Of a stretch of DNA of 53,897 nt, positions 3,830 through 42,990 are shown one piece after another. The position numbers were made by a program, and so were the translations under genes. The stretch lies in contig SVGV01000002.1 in assembly GCA_015056185.1 (NCBI GenBank), positions 1 through 53,897 of the forward strand, read 5' to 3'. The stretch's first letter is position 1, and each line of letters opens with the position of its first letter. The stretch comes from Clostridiales bacterium (GTDB taxonomy: Bacteria > Bacillota > Clostridia > Christensenellales > QAND01). The notes under the pieces are model-generated. The model had not been told where the DNA came from. It saw only the letters and a list, made by a program, of their open reading frames with translations, and ran no database searches.

Positions 3830-4861
<1,032 letters not shown>

Positions 4862-4880
4862 GCAATAGCTTATGATGCAT

Positions 4881-4915
4881 AAAAAGAGCCCTCTTTGAGG
4901 GCTCTTTTTGTTTTG
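4881..4915 (+). terminator. Intrinsic terminator of gapA
   Basis: The hairpin AAAAAGAGCCCTC-TTT-GAGGGCTCTTTTT is followed by a T-rich stretch, 20 bases after the gapA stop. Confidence 0.85.
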
Positions 4916-4923
4916 GCTGTAAT

Positions 4924-4957
4924 AAAAAAGACCATCTTGCGGTGGCCTTTTTTATTA
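4924..4957 (-). terminator. Intrinsic terminator of the WtpA-like gene
   Basis: An A-tract, an imperfect GC-rich stem around ACCATC/GGTGGC and a T-tract form a bidirectional hairpin just downstream of the reverse-strand gene ending at 4969. Confidence 0.55.
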
Positions 4958-4968
4958 AGCGTTACTGC

Positions 4969-5811
4969 TTATTTCAGGATGTCCTCGCCAACCACTTCGC
5001 TACGGGGGATCATGCCGAATGCAGCGAAATCCTTTTTGAGGAACAGCTTGGAGAATTCCTTTGCAGCATCGGCGAACTTGGCCGTCTCGGGGATGGTCAG
5101 GGCGTGTACGATGGGCCCGCCGCGTACAACGGTGTTTTCGTCCACTGCAAAGGATGCTTTGGCATATTCCTCGGCCAAATCTGTGTTGGAAAGGTTGATG
5201 CTTTCAGGCAGCTCGGCGAAGTTTTCGCCCCGGCTGACAGCGCCGGAACGGTACATAAACAGGTAGTCTGCATGGGGGAAGAGCCCCCTTTGCGCATCGT
5301 GCTCCATACCCATGTGGCCGGGATGGTTCATGAGCTTTTCCGCAATGCCGGGGCGCAGCTGATCGGCAAGAAGGATGCAGAAGATGGCGCGGTAGCCGCT
5401 GGGGTCGCCATAGGGGTTGGTGTGGCCAAAGGTGGCGTCGGGGGCAGAGAGCACATCCATCCAGTTTTCGCTGGTGATATCTTTCCCGGTGATGACCATT
5501 GCATTGCCTGCAAAGAGGTAGTAGCCTTTGGTGAGTTCGGGCATCATCATGTCTTTGATGTTGGTGTCATCAGCCAGGATCATCACATCACAGCGCTCTC
5601 CGGCGAGGGCACGGCGGATGAGCGCCACGGAGCCGCCGGCCACCATCTCTGCCATCAGTTCGGGGTGTTCCGTGTTCCATTGATCTATGGCCTCTTGTGC
5701 AACGCCGATGGCAACGCCGGCGGTGAACACCTTCAGAGTATCTTTTTCAGCAGCATCCCGGCTGGGATTGGCGGATGACGGCTTTGGCCGACTTTCTTTG
5801 GTATGTTCCAT
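4969..5811 (-). CDS. WtpA/ModA-like tungstate or molybdate binding protein lacking an export signal
   Basis: The 280-residue sequence matches extracellular oxyanion-binding proteins of the WtpA type: LKVFTAGVAIG, MAEMVAGGSVALIRRAL, DVMILADDTNIKDMM, NPYGDPSGYRAIF, DYLFMYRSGAV, LPESINLSN and the GGPIVHALTIP strand. These normally deliver tungstate or molybdate to an ABC permease outside the membrane. Oddly, residues 1-27 are hydrophilic (KESRPKPSSANPSRDAAEKD) and resemble the linker after a lipoprotein cysteine. No hydrophobic signal or lipobox precedes them, and I found none in the upstream reverse-strand DNA. GTGAGG is correctly spaced for the ATG, so the start is credible. No permease or ATPase gene adjoins it; a separate ModABC set lies at 27.2-29.4 kb. 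It may be cytosolic, or it may have lost its signal peptide. Confidence 0.75.
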   Translation of the reverse strand: MEHTKESRPKPSSANPSRDAAEKDTLKVFTAGVAIGVAQEAIDQWNTEHPELMAEMVAGGSVALIRRALAGERCDVMILADDTNIKDMMMPELTKGYYLFAGNAMVITGKDITSENWMDVLSAPDATFGHTNPYGDPSGYRAIFCILLADQLRPGIAEKLMNHPGHMGMEHDAQRGLFPHADYLFMYRSGAVSRGENFAELPESINLSNTDLAEEYAKASFAVDENTVVRGGPIVHALTIPETAKFADAAKEFSKLFLKKDFAAFGMIPRSEVVGEDILK

Positions 5812-13153: not shown

Positions 13154-13262
13154 TGCCCGAAAGGATGGCCGCATAGCGGCAGTTAGCAGCTTGGCGCTGC
13201 CTGCGCTGCTGCACCCCACCTCGCTCGCTCTGCTCGCTGGGTTCTCATCTTTGTGATACATA
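13154..13262 (-). repeat. tRNA-Arg array module 4 (type A, truncated tail)
   Basis: Type A body with the tRNA tail shortened to ATCCTTTCGGGC. The GTACGCCA end and the following terminator are lost. It borders the GrpB gene promoter. Confidence 0.75.
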
Positions 13263-13426
13263 AAACAAAAACACCACCCGGGAAGGGTAGTGTTTTTGTT
13301 TGGCGTACCCGAAAGGATTCACGAGCGGCACTGGGGCAGTGCCGCCCCCAGTCCGGGGCACTCGTTAACCATCCACAGGATGGTTAACGCCCCTTCAGGT
13401 CGTGCCCTTCGAATCCTCTCGTTTAC
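13263..13426 (-). repeat. tRNA-Arg array module 3 (type B body) with terminator
   Basis: Starts with GAGAGGATTCGAAGGG, which contains the reverse complement of the tRNA T-loop region, and ends with the tail GAATCCTTTCGGGTACGCCA. Inside are a GGTTAACCATCC/GGATGGTTAAC hairpin and a GGCACTG/CAGTGCC hairpin. The terminator 13263-13300 is near-identical to that of module 1. Confidence 0.75.
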
Positions 13427-13578
13427 AAAATAAAACACCAAAACCTAAAAAGGTGTTGGTGTTTTATGGCGTACCCGAAAGGATAGCCGCATAGCGGCAG
13501 TTTGCAGCTTGGCGCTGCTTGTGCTGCTGCACCCCCCTCGCTCGCTCTGCTCGCTGGGTTCTCATCTTTGTGATACAT
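13427..13578 (-). repeat. tRNA-Arg array module 2 (type A) with terminator
   Basis: Type A body with a full tail ATCCTTTCGGGTACGCCA, followed by a terminator with AAAACACCAA/TTGGTGTTTT stem (13427-13466) unlike the others. Confidence 0.75.
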
Positions 13579-13732
13579 AAAACAAAAACACCACCCGGGA
13601 AGGGTAGTGTTTTTGTTTGGTGTACCCGAAAGGATGGCCGCATAGCGGCAGTTTGCAGCTTGGCGCTGCCTGCGCTGCTGCACCCCACCTCGCTCGCTCT
13701 GCTCGCTGAATTCTCATCTTTGTGATACACAG
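13579..13732 (-). repeat. tRNA-Arg array module 1 (type A) with terminator
   Basis: Type A body, tail ATCCTTTCGGGTACACCA (one change from the tRNA), then a terminator with AAACAAAAACAC stem at 13579-13617. Confidence 0.75.
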
Positions 13733-13769
13733 AAATAAAAAAGCCACACGGATGTGTGACTTTTTTATT
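13733..13769 (-). terminator. Terminator of tRNA-Arg
   Basis: AAATAAAAAAG(T)CACAC-ATCC-GTGTG(G)CTTTTTTATTT on the reverse strand. The one non-Watson-Crick pair is U-G on that strand but C-A on the other, which fits transcription with the tRNA. Confidence 0.85.
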
Positions 13770-13846
13770 TGGCGTACCCGAAAGGATTCGAACCTTCGGC
13801 CTTTAGAGTCGGAGTCTAACGCTCTATCCAGCTGAGCTACGGGTAC
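13770..13846 (-). tRNA. tRNA-Arg (anticodon CCG), CCA encoded
   Basis: A 77-base cloverleaf: acceptor GTACCCG/CGGGTAC, D-arm GCTC/GAGC, anticodon arm TTAGA-CTCCGAC-TCTAA giving anticodon CCG (codon CGG), and T-arm with TTCGAAT. CCA is encoded in the DNA. Its 3' end is the template for the repeat tails to its left. Confidence 0.95.
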
Positions 13847-39985: not shown

Positions 39986-40969
39986 TCAGTCAAGGGCTAC
40001 ATAGCCTGCGTCTTCCAAAGCTTTGGTATCGATGCCAAGGTCAGCGCAGATGTCTGCGTTGTACTTCTTGGTGGCCTGGGGAGCATATTCGATGGCCATT
40101 TCGGCGATGTCAGCTTCGCCCTTTAAGATCTTCACAGCCATCTTGCCGGTGGTGTAGCCAAGGTCATAGTAGCTGATGGAAAGGGTGGCGATGCCGCAGC
40201 CGCCGCAGATGCCGCTTTCACCGGCGATGATGGGCTTTTTGTTGTTGCCCATGGCGCCGTAGATGGTCTCGGCACAGGCAGCAGCGGTGTTATCGGTGGG
40301 GATGTAGATGGCGTCGCACTCGGCAGCGGCCTTCTGGGTCACGGTGGTTACGTCGTTGGAATCGGAGAACTCATAGTTTTTGCAGGTAAGGCCTTTTGCG
40401 GTGAGGTATTCGGTTACCTTTTTCACCTGGTAGTCGGAGTTGGCTTCGCTTGCGCAGTAGAGCATGCCCACCACTTTTGCATCGGGCACGAGGTCGATGA
40501 TCATCTGGGCCTGGTCATCCAGACTTGCAAGGTCGCTGGTGCCGCTGACGTTGCCGCCCACGGTGCCGGTGAAGTTATCAAGGCTGAGGGCTACGCCGTA
40601 CTCGGTAACGGAGGTGCCCAGGATGGGGATCTCGGTGGTGGCGTTGTAAGCAGCCTGCAGGGCGGGGGTAGCATTGGCCATGATGAGGTCTACCTTCTGC
40701 TGTACAAAGGTGTTGGCTACGGTAGCACAGGTATCGGGGGAGCCGGCTGCATTCTGGATGTCAATGGTGACATTCTCTTTGCCAAGTTCCTCTTCCAAAG
40801 CGGCTACAAAGCCATCGGTGGCGGCATCAAGAGCATCGTGAGTGATCAGCTGGATCACGCCGACGGTGTACTTGCCGTCATCTGCGGGTTCGCTGCTGCC
40901 GCCGCATGCAGTCAGGCACAGGATCATGGCGATGGCCAGGATCAGACTTAACATACGTTTGTTTTTCAT
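39986..40969 (-). CDS. TrpX-type substrate-binding lipoprotein
   Basis: The 327-residue lipoprotein has a signal ending in the lipobox LTAC followed by a Ser/Glu/Asp-rich linker. The binding domain is of the PF04392 type: YTVGVIQLITHDALDAATDGF, LIMANATPALQAAYNATTEIPILGTSVTEYG and VVGMLYCASEANSDYQVK. Proteins of this group bind amino acids or related small ligands. GGGAGGAATC lies just before the ATG at 40969; the track start is 15 bases too early. A T-box whose specifier reads UUC sits upstream, so phenylalanine or its precursor is the best guess. Confidence 0.9.
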   Translation of the reverse strand: MKNKRMLSLILAIAMILCLTACGGSSEPADDGKYTVGVIQLITHDALDAATDGFVAALEEELGKENVTIDIQNAAGSPDTCATVANTFVQQKVDLIMANATPALQAAYNATTEIPILGTSVTEYGVALSLDNFTGTVGGNVSGTSDLASLDDQAQMIIDLVPDAKVVGMLYCASEANSDYQVKKVTEYLTAKGLTCKNYEFSDSNDVTTVTQKAAAECDAIYIPTDNTAAACAETIYGAMGNNKKPIIAGESGICGGCGIATLSISYYDLGYTTGKMAVKILKGEADIAEMAIEYAPQATKKYNADICADLGIDTKALEDAGYVALD

Positions 40970-41029
40970 GGTGATTCCTCCCATTAAAATAAATCAAGTT
41001 TATTTCAACGAATCTGATTCGTTGGAACC

Positions 41030-41573: not shown

Positions 41574-41708
41574 GGGAGACGTCCTCTCATCTGTTCCTAT
41601 ATATAGGATAATAGGAGAATCGATGGTTTATTGCAATTGTTTGCCCGTGGAGACTGCGGGATTGATGCAGCATCTGCGGTGGACGATGGCCCCCGTTCAA
41701 CTCCCCAT
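41574..41708 (-). repeat. tmRNA array, outermost remnant (module e)
   Basis: It begins on the reverse strand with GCGATGGGGAGTTGAACGGG, the same start as modules a and b, but no tmRNA tail is recognisable at its other end, next to the GNAT pseudogene. Confidence 0.5.
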
Positions 41709-42004
41709 CGCAAAACAATAGCGGCACCATGCGATGTGCGCAGATCTGCTTGCAACGGGCAAAAAAGACCGCACCAACAAAAAAGATAGCGCGGCGTGGC
41801 TGCGGCAGCTTGCTCATGGTGGAGGCGAGGGGAGTTGCTCCGGGGCATCACCGCCCAATTGCAGGGGGAATCATCTATCTTTATATAACAGCGTGCATCC
41901 TACATATGTTTTTTGTGGCTCTGCCCCTATCACGCCGGGGCCTAAAAACATGCCACCGGCACCTTTTGCCGGCTGCGCCGTCACACCCGATGGGCTCCCC
42001 ATCG
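41709..42004 (-). repeat. tmRNA array module d (copy of module c)
   Basis: About 296 bases, nearly identical to 42005-42296. It keeps the tail AACTCCCCTCGCCTCCACCA with its CCA, and a decayed terminator (GGTGCCGCTATTGTTTTG). Confidence 0.75.
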
Positions 42005-42296
42005 CAAAATAAAAGCAGCACCATGCGATGTGCGCAGATCTGCTTGCAACGGGCAAAAAAGACCGCACCAATAAAAAAGATAGCGCGGCGTGGCTGCGGC
42101 AGCTTGCCGCTGGAGGCGAGGGGAGTTGCTCCGGGGCATCACCGCTCAATTGCAGGGGGCATCATCTATCTTTCATATAACAGCGTGCATCCTACATTTG
42201 TTTCTTGTGGCTCTGCCCCTATCACGCCGGGGTGTTCAAAAGGTGCCACCGGCACCTTTTGCCGGCTGCGCCGTCACACCCGATGGGCTCCCTATC
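42005..42296 (-). repeat. tmRNA array module c
   Basis: Starts GCGATAGGGAGCCCATC, ends AACTCCCCTCGCCTCCA, then a spacer and a degenerate terminator with GGTGCTGCTTTTATTTT. The CACCA of the tail is reduced to CA. Confidence 0.75.
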
Positions 42297-42447
42297 GCAA
42301 AAAAAAGCAGCACCATACGATGTATGGCACTGCTTTCATTTGGTGGAGGCGAGGGGAGTTGCTCCGGCGCCTTCGGCGCCTATCACGCCGGGGCCAAAAA
42401 ACATGCCGCCGGCATGTTTTTTCACGGCCCGTTCAACTCCCCCATAA
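42297..42447 (-). repeat. tmRNA array module b with terminator
   Basis: Begins GGGGGAGTTGAACGGGCC, contains the hairpin AAAAAACATGCC/GGCATGTTTTTT, and ends with the full tail including CCA. The terminator at 42297-42340 is almost identical to that of ssrA. Confidence 0.8.
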
Positions 42448-42595
42448 TAAAAAAAGAAACGCCCTGCTTGCGCAGGACATTTCTTTTCATGGTGGAGGCG
42501 AGGGGAGTTCCGCCGCAGCCGTTGGCTGCTATCAGGCCGCGTTCGCTCGCTGCATCTGCCGCTGGCAGCGCTCGCTTCCGGTTCAACTCCCCATC
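42448..42595 (-). repeat. tmRNA array module a with terminator
   Basis: Begins GGGGAGTTGAACCGGAAG, contains GCCGTTGGCTG-type hairpins, and ends with the full tail including CCA. It is followed by its own terminator with AAAGAAA(U)G(U)CCTGC stem (42448-42489). Confidence 0.8.
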
Positions 42596-42597
42596 GC

Positions 42598-42640
42598 AAA
42601 ATAAAAGCAGCACCATACGATGTATGGCACTGCTTTCATT
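42598..42640 (-). terminator. Terminator of ssrA
   Basis: AAAGCAGTGCCATA-CATCG-TATGGTGCTGCTTT followed by TATTTT on the reverse strand. Its two odd pairs are U-G and G-U on this strand and C-A on the other. Confidence 0.85.
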
Positions 42641-42990
42641 TGGTGGAGGCGAGGGGAGTTGAACCCCTGTCCGAAGATGTTCGTCTACAGTTTTCTCCGA
42701 GCGCAGCGGCTTGATCTCATTCCCGCAGCAATTCCTCAAGACGCAAGGGAATTACCTTGGTAGCTTCATCATACCGGCGCGGGGGCAAAGCTTAACCCGG
42801 CCTGTTCCCCATCTAATGGCGTTCTATCCTGCCCGACGGGACATGCAGGTAGAACGTCGCAGCGTTAGGCTGCGAAAGCTACGTTGTTTTTCGCAGTTAT
42901 TATTTGTTTGCCGGTTTTTAGTGCAGATTCCGGCGTCCTGCAGCTCGCTTACCGTACCCAATCCATCCCCGTCGAAACCATTACGCCCCC
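42641..42990 (-). ncRNA. ssrA: Transfer-messenger RNA (tmRNA), one-piece
   Basis: The 350-base RNA starts GGGGGCG and ends CGCCTCC-A-CCA, which pair as the tRNA-Ala-like acceptor arm. GTTTCGACGGGG near the 5' end and the T-arm GGGGTTCAACTCCCC are diagnostic. The tag reading frame (plus-strand coordinates 42865-42894) encodes AKNNVAFAA and then TAA. It rescues ribosomes stalled on broken messages together with SmpB, encoded at 25149-25613. Its 3' end is repeated several times downstream. Confidence 0.97.

Follow-up and report, generated by a model that had tools for sequence, protein, structure and literature searches.

What are the hairpin-bearing modules that follow the tmRNA gene (ssrA) of this clostridial genome, each of which ends in a further copy of the tmRNA 3' end, and how did they come to lie there? 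The question is answered below from the arrays themselves, from their counterparts behind other RNA genes, and from sister genomes in which individual modules are present or absent.

Arrays in the window

The minus strand 3' of ssrA in the window (the whole stretch of 53,897 nucleotides analysed here) carries four units in complete form, with lengths of 151, 149, 233 and 291 nt, and a fifth that is truncated, arranged in the order inverse T-arm, folded core and ssrA 3' tail (Table 1). The tail AACTCCCCTCGCCTCCACCA is exact in units t1, t2 and t4, while the copy in t3 ends CCAGCG; its 14-mer CTCCCCTCGCCTCC occurs five times, always at the ssrA array, against an expectation of 0.02. The inverse arm GGGGAGTTGAAC is found in t1, t2 and the fifth unit, and decayed forms (GGGAGCCCATC) in t3 and t4. 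A covariance model termed R1 matches t1 at 42592-42502 and t2 with E=3e-22, the latter also being matched by a second model, R2 (E=7e-16). Unit t3, in which an insert enlarges the core and the CCA of the tail is lost, is matched by R1 in part, and t4 is a near copy of it (74% identical). The stretch after t2 reproduces the terminator stretch of ssrA to 98%, and the terminator after t1 differs from that of ssrA and looks functional. The original prediction, made from the same DNA, had described at least four modules with an inverse T-arm and a tail copy, the nearest two followed by terminators; the positions of tails and arms, the 14-mer count and the terminator copy therefore confirm this array.

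Table 1. Positions of the two RNA genes and of the units behind them in the window.
Feature	Position	Strand	Parts
ssrA (tmRNA gene)	42641..42990	-	last 20 bases 42660-42641 = repeated tail
Unit t1	42490..42640	-	ssrA terminator stretch T1, inverse arm 42592-42581, core 42580-42510, tail 42509-42490
Unit t2	42341..42489	-	terminator T2 42488-42451, inverse arm 42442-42431, core 42430-42361, tail 42360-42341
Unit t3	42108..42340	-	T1 copy, decayed inverse arm 42292-42282, tail 42127-42108
Unit t4	41817..42107	-	decayed inverse arm 41999-41989, tail 41836-41817
Fifth unit, truncated	41690..41816	-	flank and intact inverse arm 41706-41695; core lost
tRNA-Arg(CCG), head of second array	13770..13846	-	
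Unit u1	13618..13769	-	terminator a, type-B core, tail 13635-13618
Unit u2	13467..13617	-	terminator b, type-B core, exact tail 13484-13467
Unit u3	13301..13466	-	terminator c, type-A core, exact tail 13318-13301
Unit u4	13160..13300	-	terminator b, type-B core, truncated tail

A second array, absent from the original prediction, follows tRNA-Arg(CCG) and spans 13769-13160 on the minus strand. Its cores run in the order B, B, A, B, the foreign type-A unit u3 sitting between u2 and u4, which are 90% identical to one another; such interleaving of unit types behind a single tail is the expectation for separable cassettes. The type-B left arms AGATGAGAA lie at 13711-13719, 13559-13567 and 13242-13250 of the window (minus strand).

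Two further features were observed. Elsewhere in the genome, GC-rich interspersed repeats at loci L009-L015 (contigs C65, C19, C22, C60, C54 and C1 of the source genome, G000) have hairpin stretches in common with t1 and t3 (e.g. CGCTGCCAGTGGCAGAGGAAGCGAG) and possibly represent another family of non-autonomous elements. A T-box leader lies at 41302-41058 (minus strand) of the window, upstream of a gene for an ABC-transporter substrate-binding protein (39986-40984).

Anatomy of the units

Across 84 RNA genes, the inverse arm is complementary to the adjoining gene from G53 to about nt 63-65 and fits the T-arm of that neighbour, compared with 2 of 316 upstream controls. The arm pairs with the tail of its own unit over 7-8 bp, and in the modelled structure the invariant AAC would find a partner in the intact T-loop only and none within the unit. 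A wider role of the arm as a mimic of the full acceptor/T minihelix was considered and rejected, pairing past the T-stem amounting to 120 Watson-Crick pairs where 123 were expected by permutation, although the match reaches 16-20 nt at a few loci. The core has a closing stem and, within it, one or two further stems; the word GGCGTGATA..GGAG encloses a variable stem, and the right junction of the aligned units joins GGAGC to RARTCCC. Among 26 sequences, the covariation score of the core is 0.306 (0.098 when shuffled and at most 0.09 when slid), and 10 of 17 core pairs have changes on both sides. Whereas the arms are specific to their locus, likeness among the cores goes with the genome, their identity being 0.70 within genomes and 0.60 between them, a difference reached in none of 2000 permutations.

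Occurrence behind other RNA genes and in other genomes

About ten RNA genes of the source genome bear this architecture, namely the tmRNA gene and those of tRNA-Ala, three tRNA-Ser, two tRNA-Arg and tRNA-Thr, with a looser downstream anatomy at Val(CAC) and Met(CAT). Behind tRNA-Ala(CGC), tRNA-Ser(CGA) and tRNA-Arg(ACG) the type-A core is found again, each time with the tail and arms proper to that gene, and the predicted tRNAs Ser(GCT), Ser(GGA), Thr(GGT) and Arg(CCG) are also followed by clear units. Model R1, built from five copies of the source genome, matches 7 of 61 genomes, mostly of the same order, and 15 of its 20 matches outside the source genome sit behind a tRNA. A second tmRNA with a unit was found in G144 through R2, its arms fitting its own T-arm; the R2 matches in the wider samples are lower bounds, few candidates per genome having been scored. 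With R1 and R2, no units were detected in most sampled relatives.

A scan of GTDB with the pattern GGCGTGATAGN{4,34}GGAGCRARTCCC returned 107 stretches, nearly all from Clostridia or their kin, and the same scan of IMG/VR returned none. Of the 126 GTDB matches, 96 follow a same-strand tRNA at a distance of at most 600 nt, 17 are truncated by the start of a contig or stretch, and 13 lie elsewhere, eight of these retaining an NCCA tail and five being decayed or due to chance. The distribution is not the one named beforehand as contrary to the original prediction, that is, modules at random places unrelated to RNA genes. In 70 of the 96 tRNA-adjacent matches, the 13 nt after RARTCCC are the tail of the neighbouring tRNA; the excess of Ser and Leu genes (62/96) may in part reflect search bias, because the pattern requires a CCC T-stem. 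Since most loci are tRNA genes, nothing points to the tmRNA-specific roles, such as decoys for SmpB, that had been suggested for the modules.

Phage and plasmid collections queried with the clostridial array gave matches to tRNA-like ends only, and a query with the E. coli rtT repeat found one Salmonella record filed among phages. Rfam, searched with the modules at gathering and at relaxed thresholds, and the accessible parts of the literature searched contain no matching family; the structured-RNA papers, one of which covers RNAs near tRNA-ligase genes, do not describe such units in those parts, and the subscription literature on rtT falls largely outside this scope.

Empty and filled sites

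Two units occur in the complete genome G545, one of 128 nt in the spacer that separates tRNA-Leu(GAG) from tRNA-Ser(GCT) and one of 131 nt in that separating tRNA-Ser(TGA) from the next tRNA-Arg, and both are missing to the base in the congeners G521 and G592, where the empty sites equal the filled sites minus the unit, G592 differing at a few nearby bases. The host flank at these sites is unchanged and not duplicated, the tail alone being repeated in phase, and the flank brought by the G545 units has no more than a few bases in common with the host flank; G636 has a related unit at Leu(GAG). Similarly, the tyrT-tyrV spacer of E. coli has one rtT unit in K-12, three in EC1303 and none in SK1144 and FDAARGOS_401. 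The exact empty and filled sites at Leu(GAG) and Ser(TGA) support one origin put forward in the original prediction, the scars of repeated site-specific insertion, and the precise empty site together with a direct repeat equal to the gene 3' end is a feature of site-specific integrative elements. Whether units were gained or lost at these sites is unproved, because slippage loss between 20-bp repeats gives the same empty sites.

The units are best read, with about an even chance that the reading is right, as insertion units ('tail cassettes') that are neither coding nor autonomous and that site-specific exchange adds in phase at the T-loop/CCA end. Each comprises a flank, usually a terminator, followed by an inverse complement to the T-loop and the T-stem 3' strand of the host gene, a folded core of about 65-130 nt and a fresh tail copy corresponding to nt 57-76, from the middle of the T-loop to CCA. 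The tail of the tRNA or tmRNA gene itself, or one within an existing array, would receive the new unit in phase. Since the unit brings a tail of its own, and a terminator where one is needed, the RNA gene would stay intact. Exchange would probably occur between C56 and R57, with gain rather than loss as the likely direction, folded single-stranded DNA as the putative substrate and a recombinase presumably supplied in trans.

Host replication and repair could conceivably produce the same arrays, an explanation that we hold to be possible and on the whole unlikely: on passing the tail and the terminator palindrome, copying would fold back, switch to an existing core and return, with the universal T-loop words TYGAAC and RARTCCC as switch points and no dedicated enzyme, while slippage and unequal crossing-over between tails would alter the number of units and quasi-palindrome correction would keep their stems perfect. 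Such copying finds a plausible substrate at Ala, L037 and L208, where a single long palindrome spans tail, terminator and inverse tail, and the duplication of the flank along with the tail at several loci (L133, L202 and L203) suggests local copying. At three clean empty/filled sites, however, the units carry a flank of their own and not a copy of the host flank, the same T-loop junction recurs, and the non-palindromic core word GGCGTGATA..GGAGC is common across families, which drift by slippage would not preserve.

Test of selection on the folded core

The original prediction had taken the G-U pairs on the tmRNA strand, opposed to C-A on the other, as a sign that RNA structure is selected on that strand. 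In counts that penalise G-U and A-C equally, the core helices comprise 1245 Watson-Crick, 10 G-U and 19 A-C pairs, compared with 818, 31 and 3 in the tRNA acceptor stems of the same loci. The G-U pattern thus fails as a property of the family, and selection on the RNA strand is unsupported, because a helix selected as sense-strand RNA should resemble the tRNA stems, and the cores have no excess of G-U. Recent turnover or palindrome correction could also remove wobble pairs from the cores, and their near absence speaks for the host-repair explanation in this respect.

These counts also weigh on the suggestion, made for rtT, of a functional RNA family, in which read-through would yield small RNAs that end like a tRNA in CCA and serve as decoys or regulators. 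We consider it improbable here, even though almost all units directly follow the gene in sense orientation, their paired core is conserved, their tails are intact to CCA in the proportion of tRNA-adjacent matches given above, and E. coli records annotate rtT RNA as a processed product. Besides the lack of a G-U excess, close relatives do without units, as do most of the relatives sampled so far as could be detected, and the terminator that precedes most units behind operon ends leaves little transcript to be expected.

Candidate enzymes

The source genome, which is 96.6% complete, contains no match to a Y1 transposase, reverse transcriptase (RVT_1) or serine resolvase, and mobilisation by IS200/IS605-type, reverse-transcriptase or serine-resolvase systems was set aside for want of these enzymes there. 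Its single tyrosine recombinase, the sole match to PF00589, is XerS-like, scoring best with XerS at 174 bits (cut-off 267) and falling far below the cut-off as an integron integrase (55 against 265), and is the only candidate among the families searched for the recombinase that the insertion of tail cassettes would call for. Among the other carriers, Y1 transposases are lacking in G011, G022, G037, G052 and G057, with one in G035, and reverse transcriptases are lacking in G011, G035, G052, G057, G181 and G324 and present in G022, G037, G312 and G545. An HxLRH motif scan of 80 loci, crude enough to miss degenerate or truncated copies, revealed no tyrosine recombinase; being non-coding, the units do not encode the integrase by which a site-specific integrative element is also recognised. 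Because the enzyme search in the source genome gave just one XerS-like recombinase, confidence in site-specific insertion is only moderate and template switching by the host is a serious rival, favoured in turn by the fact that no mobile-element enzyme other than the XerS-like protein was found to be common to the carriers.

Comparison with known systems

The likeness to rtT that had been proposed for the modules holds for the order of the units and for their presence and absence, and fails at the level of sequence, where no homology is detectable. As in the clostridial arrays, the rtT/rttR repeats behind E. coli tyrT-tyrV (RF00391) are tandem units of about 150-180 bp that each end in the 3' end of the upstream tRNA, have a left arm that pairs with the tail (GGGGAAGGAT/ATCCTTCCCC), vary in copy number among strains and leave precise empty sites; whereas rtT is known at tRNA-Tyr, the clostridial units lie behind many tRNAs and tmRNA. 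The RF00391 covariance model matched no unit even at E<=1, and gave four matches in K-12 as a positive control. Homology of the type-B units to rtT was likewise rejected for lack of significance, since 80 and 68 of 500 shuffles did equally well; the rtT left arm GGAAGGATGAGAA has GATGAGAA in common with the type-B left arms.

Integron cassettes form in-phase arrays whose attC boundaries are folded imperfect palindromes with a variable terminal stem, and attC recombination relies on sequence common to one side of the junction only. By analogy, the present units appear similar in their in-phase arrays, folded boundary palindrome and one-sided sharing of junction sequence, and differ in that their landing site would be a tRNA T-arm and not attI, that nearly all are geneless and that the source genome gave no integron integrase. 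The attC R-boxes, RYYYAAC ... GTTRRRY, are not reproduced, GTTRRRY being missing at the right end of the aligned units. The one cargo-bearing case was seen at L111, in the interval 4150-5472, where the ORF of a DUF4932 protein ends just before a half-module, CCGGCGTGATAG..GGAGC, and a tRNA-Leu tail. REP/REPIN hairpins, which depend on RAYT, a Y1 transposase of the IS200/IS605 type, are likewise small non-autonomous hairpin elements; unlike them, the units are not interspersed, and the source genome and five of the six other R1 carriers have no Y1 transposase.

Close in outcome, and a precedent for the tail-cassette reading, are the tandem ssrA islands of Dehalococcoides, which leave 20-bp repeats of the ssrA 3' end and regenerate that end with each insertion, inferred to occur in the middle of the T-loop through the serine recombinase DsiB (PMC3146451). 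Repeated regeneration of a tmRNA end is therefore a known outcome of island accretion, and what is unusual here is that the unit lacks cargo, is built from hairpins, has an inverse arm and occurs at many tRNA genes. The islands possess cargo genes and a module for integration, whereas the present units are 0.13-0.3 kb long, non-coding and found at many RNA genes; the inverse T-arm and the conserved folded core belong to these units, and the main text describing the islands does not contain the term 'inverted repeat' (PMC3146451).

The units might be ordinary remnants of islands targeted to tRNA or tmRNA genes, that is, attR scars left after loss of cargo, for which the 20-bp 3'-end repeats that result from island integration (PMC3146451) provide a precedent. 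An island-like 2.5-kb segment was also seen after the tRNA-His unit of Candidatus Dichloromethanomonas elyunquensis (L133, at about 4475 in the reverse-complement reading); it ends in a longer tRNA-His repeat and its truncated ORF resembles the N-terminal part of a tyrosine recombinase. Such an origin is nonetheless very improbable for the units as a class, since scars would not have inverse arms and a conserved folded core in common throughout Clostridia, nor would they recur two to four times in phase with almost no cargo.

A broader proposal, which we put forward as speculative and rather doubtful, is that cargo-less, hairpin-encoded cassettes constitute a separate class of mobile DNA, in which the T-arm of any tRNA or tmRNA would serve as an attI-like site, each insertion would restore the end of the RNA gene, and folded single strands would be moved by a host recombinase, possibly XerS or another of the Xer type, with rtT as an independent example of this principle.

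Concluding remarks

On the best reading of these arrays, the units behave like tiny mobile cassettes that land on tRNA ends, in the manner of accreting tRNA/tmRNA islands but built from hairpins. What had been a single curiosity of E. coli, rtT, becomes a recurrent architecture at the ends of tRNA and tmRNA genes, and because this architecture recurs and clean presence/absence pairs exist in sister genomes, the nature of rtT is now testable in several hosts. If the cassette reading is true, T-arms would be landing sites for elements too small to hold genes, with a bearing on tRNA annotation, on integrase hotspots and on the recombination of folded single-stranded DNA outside integrons.
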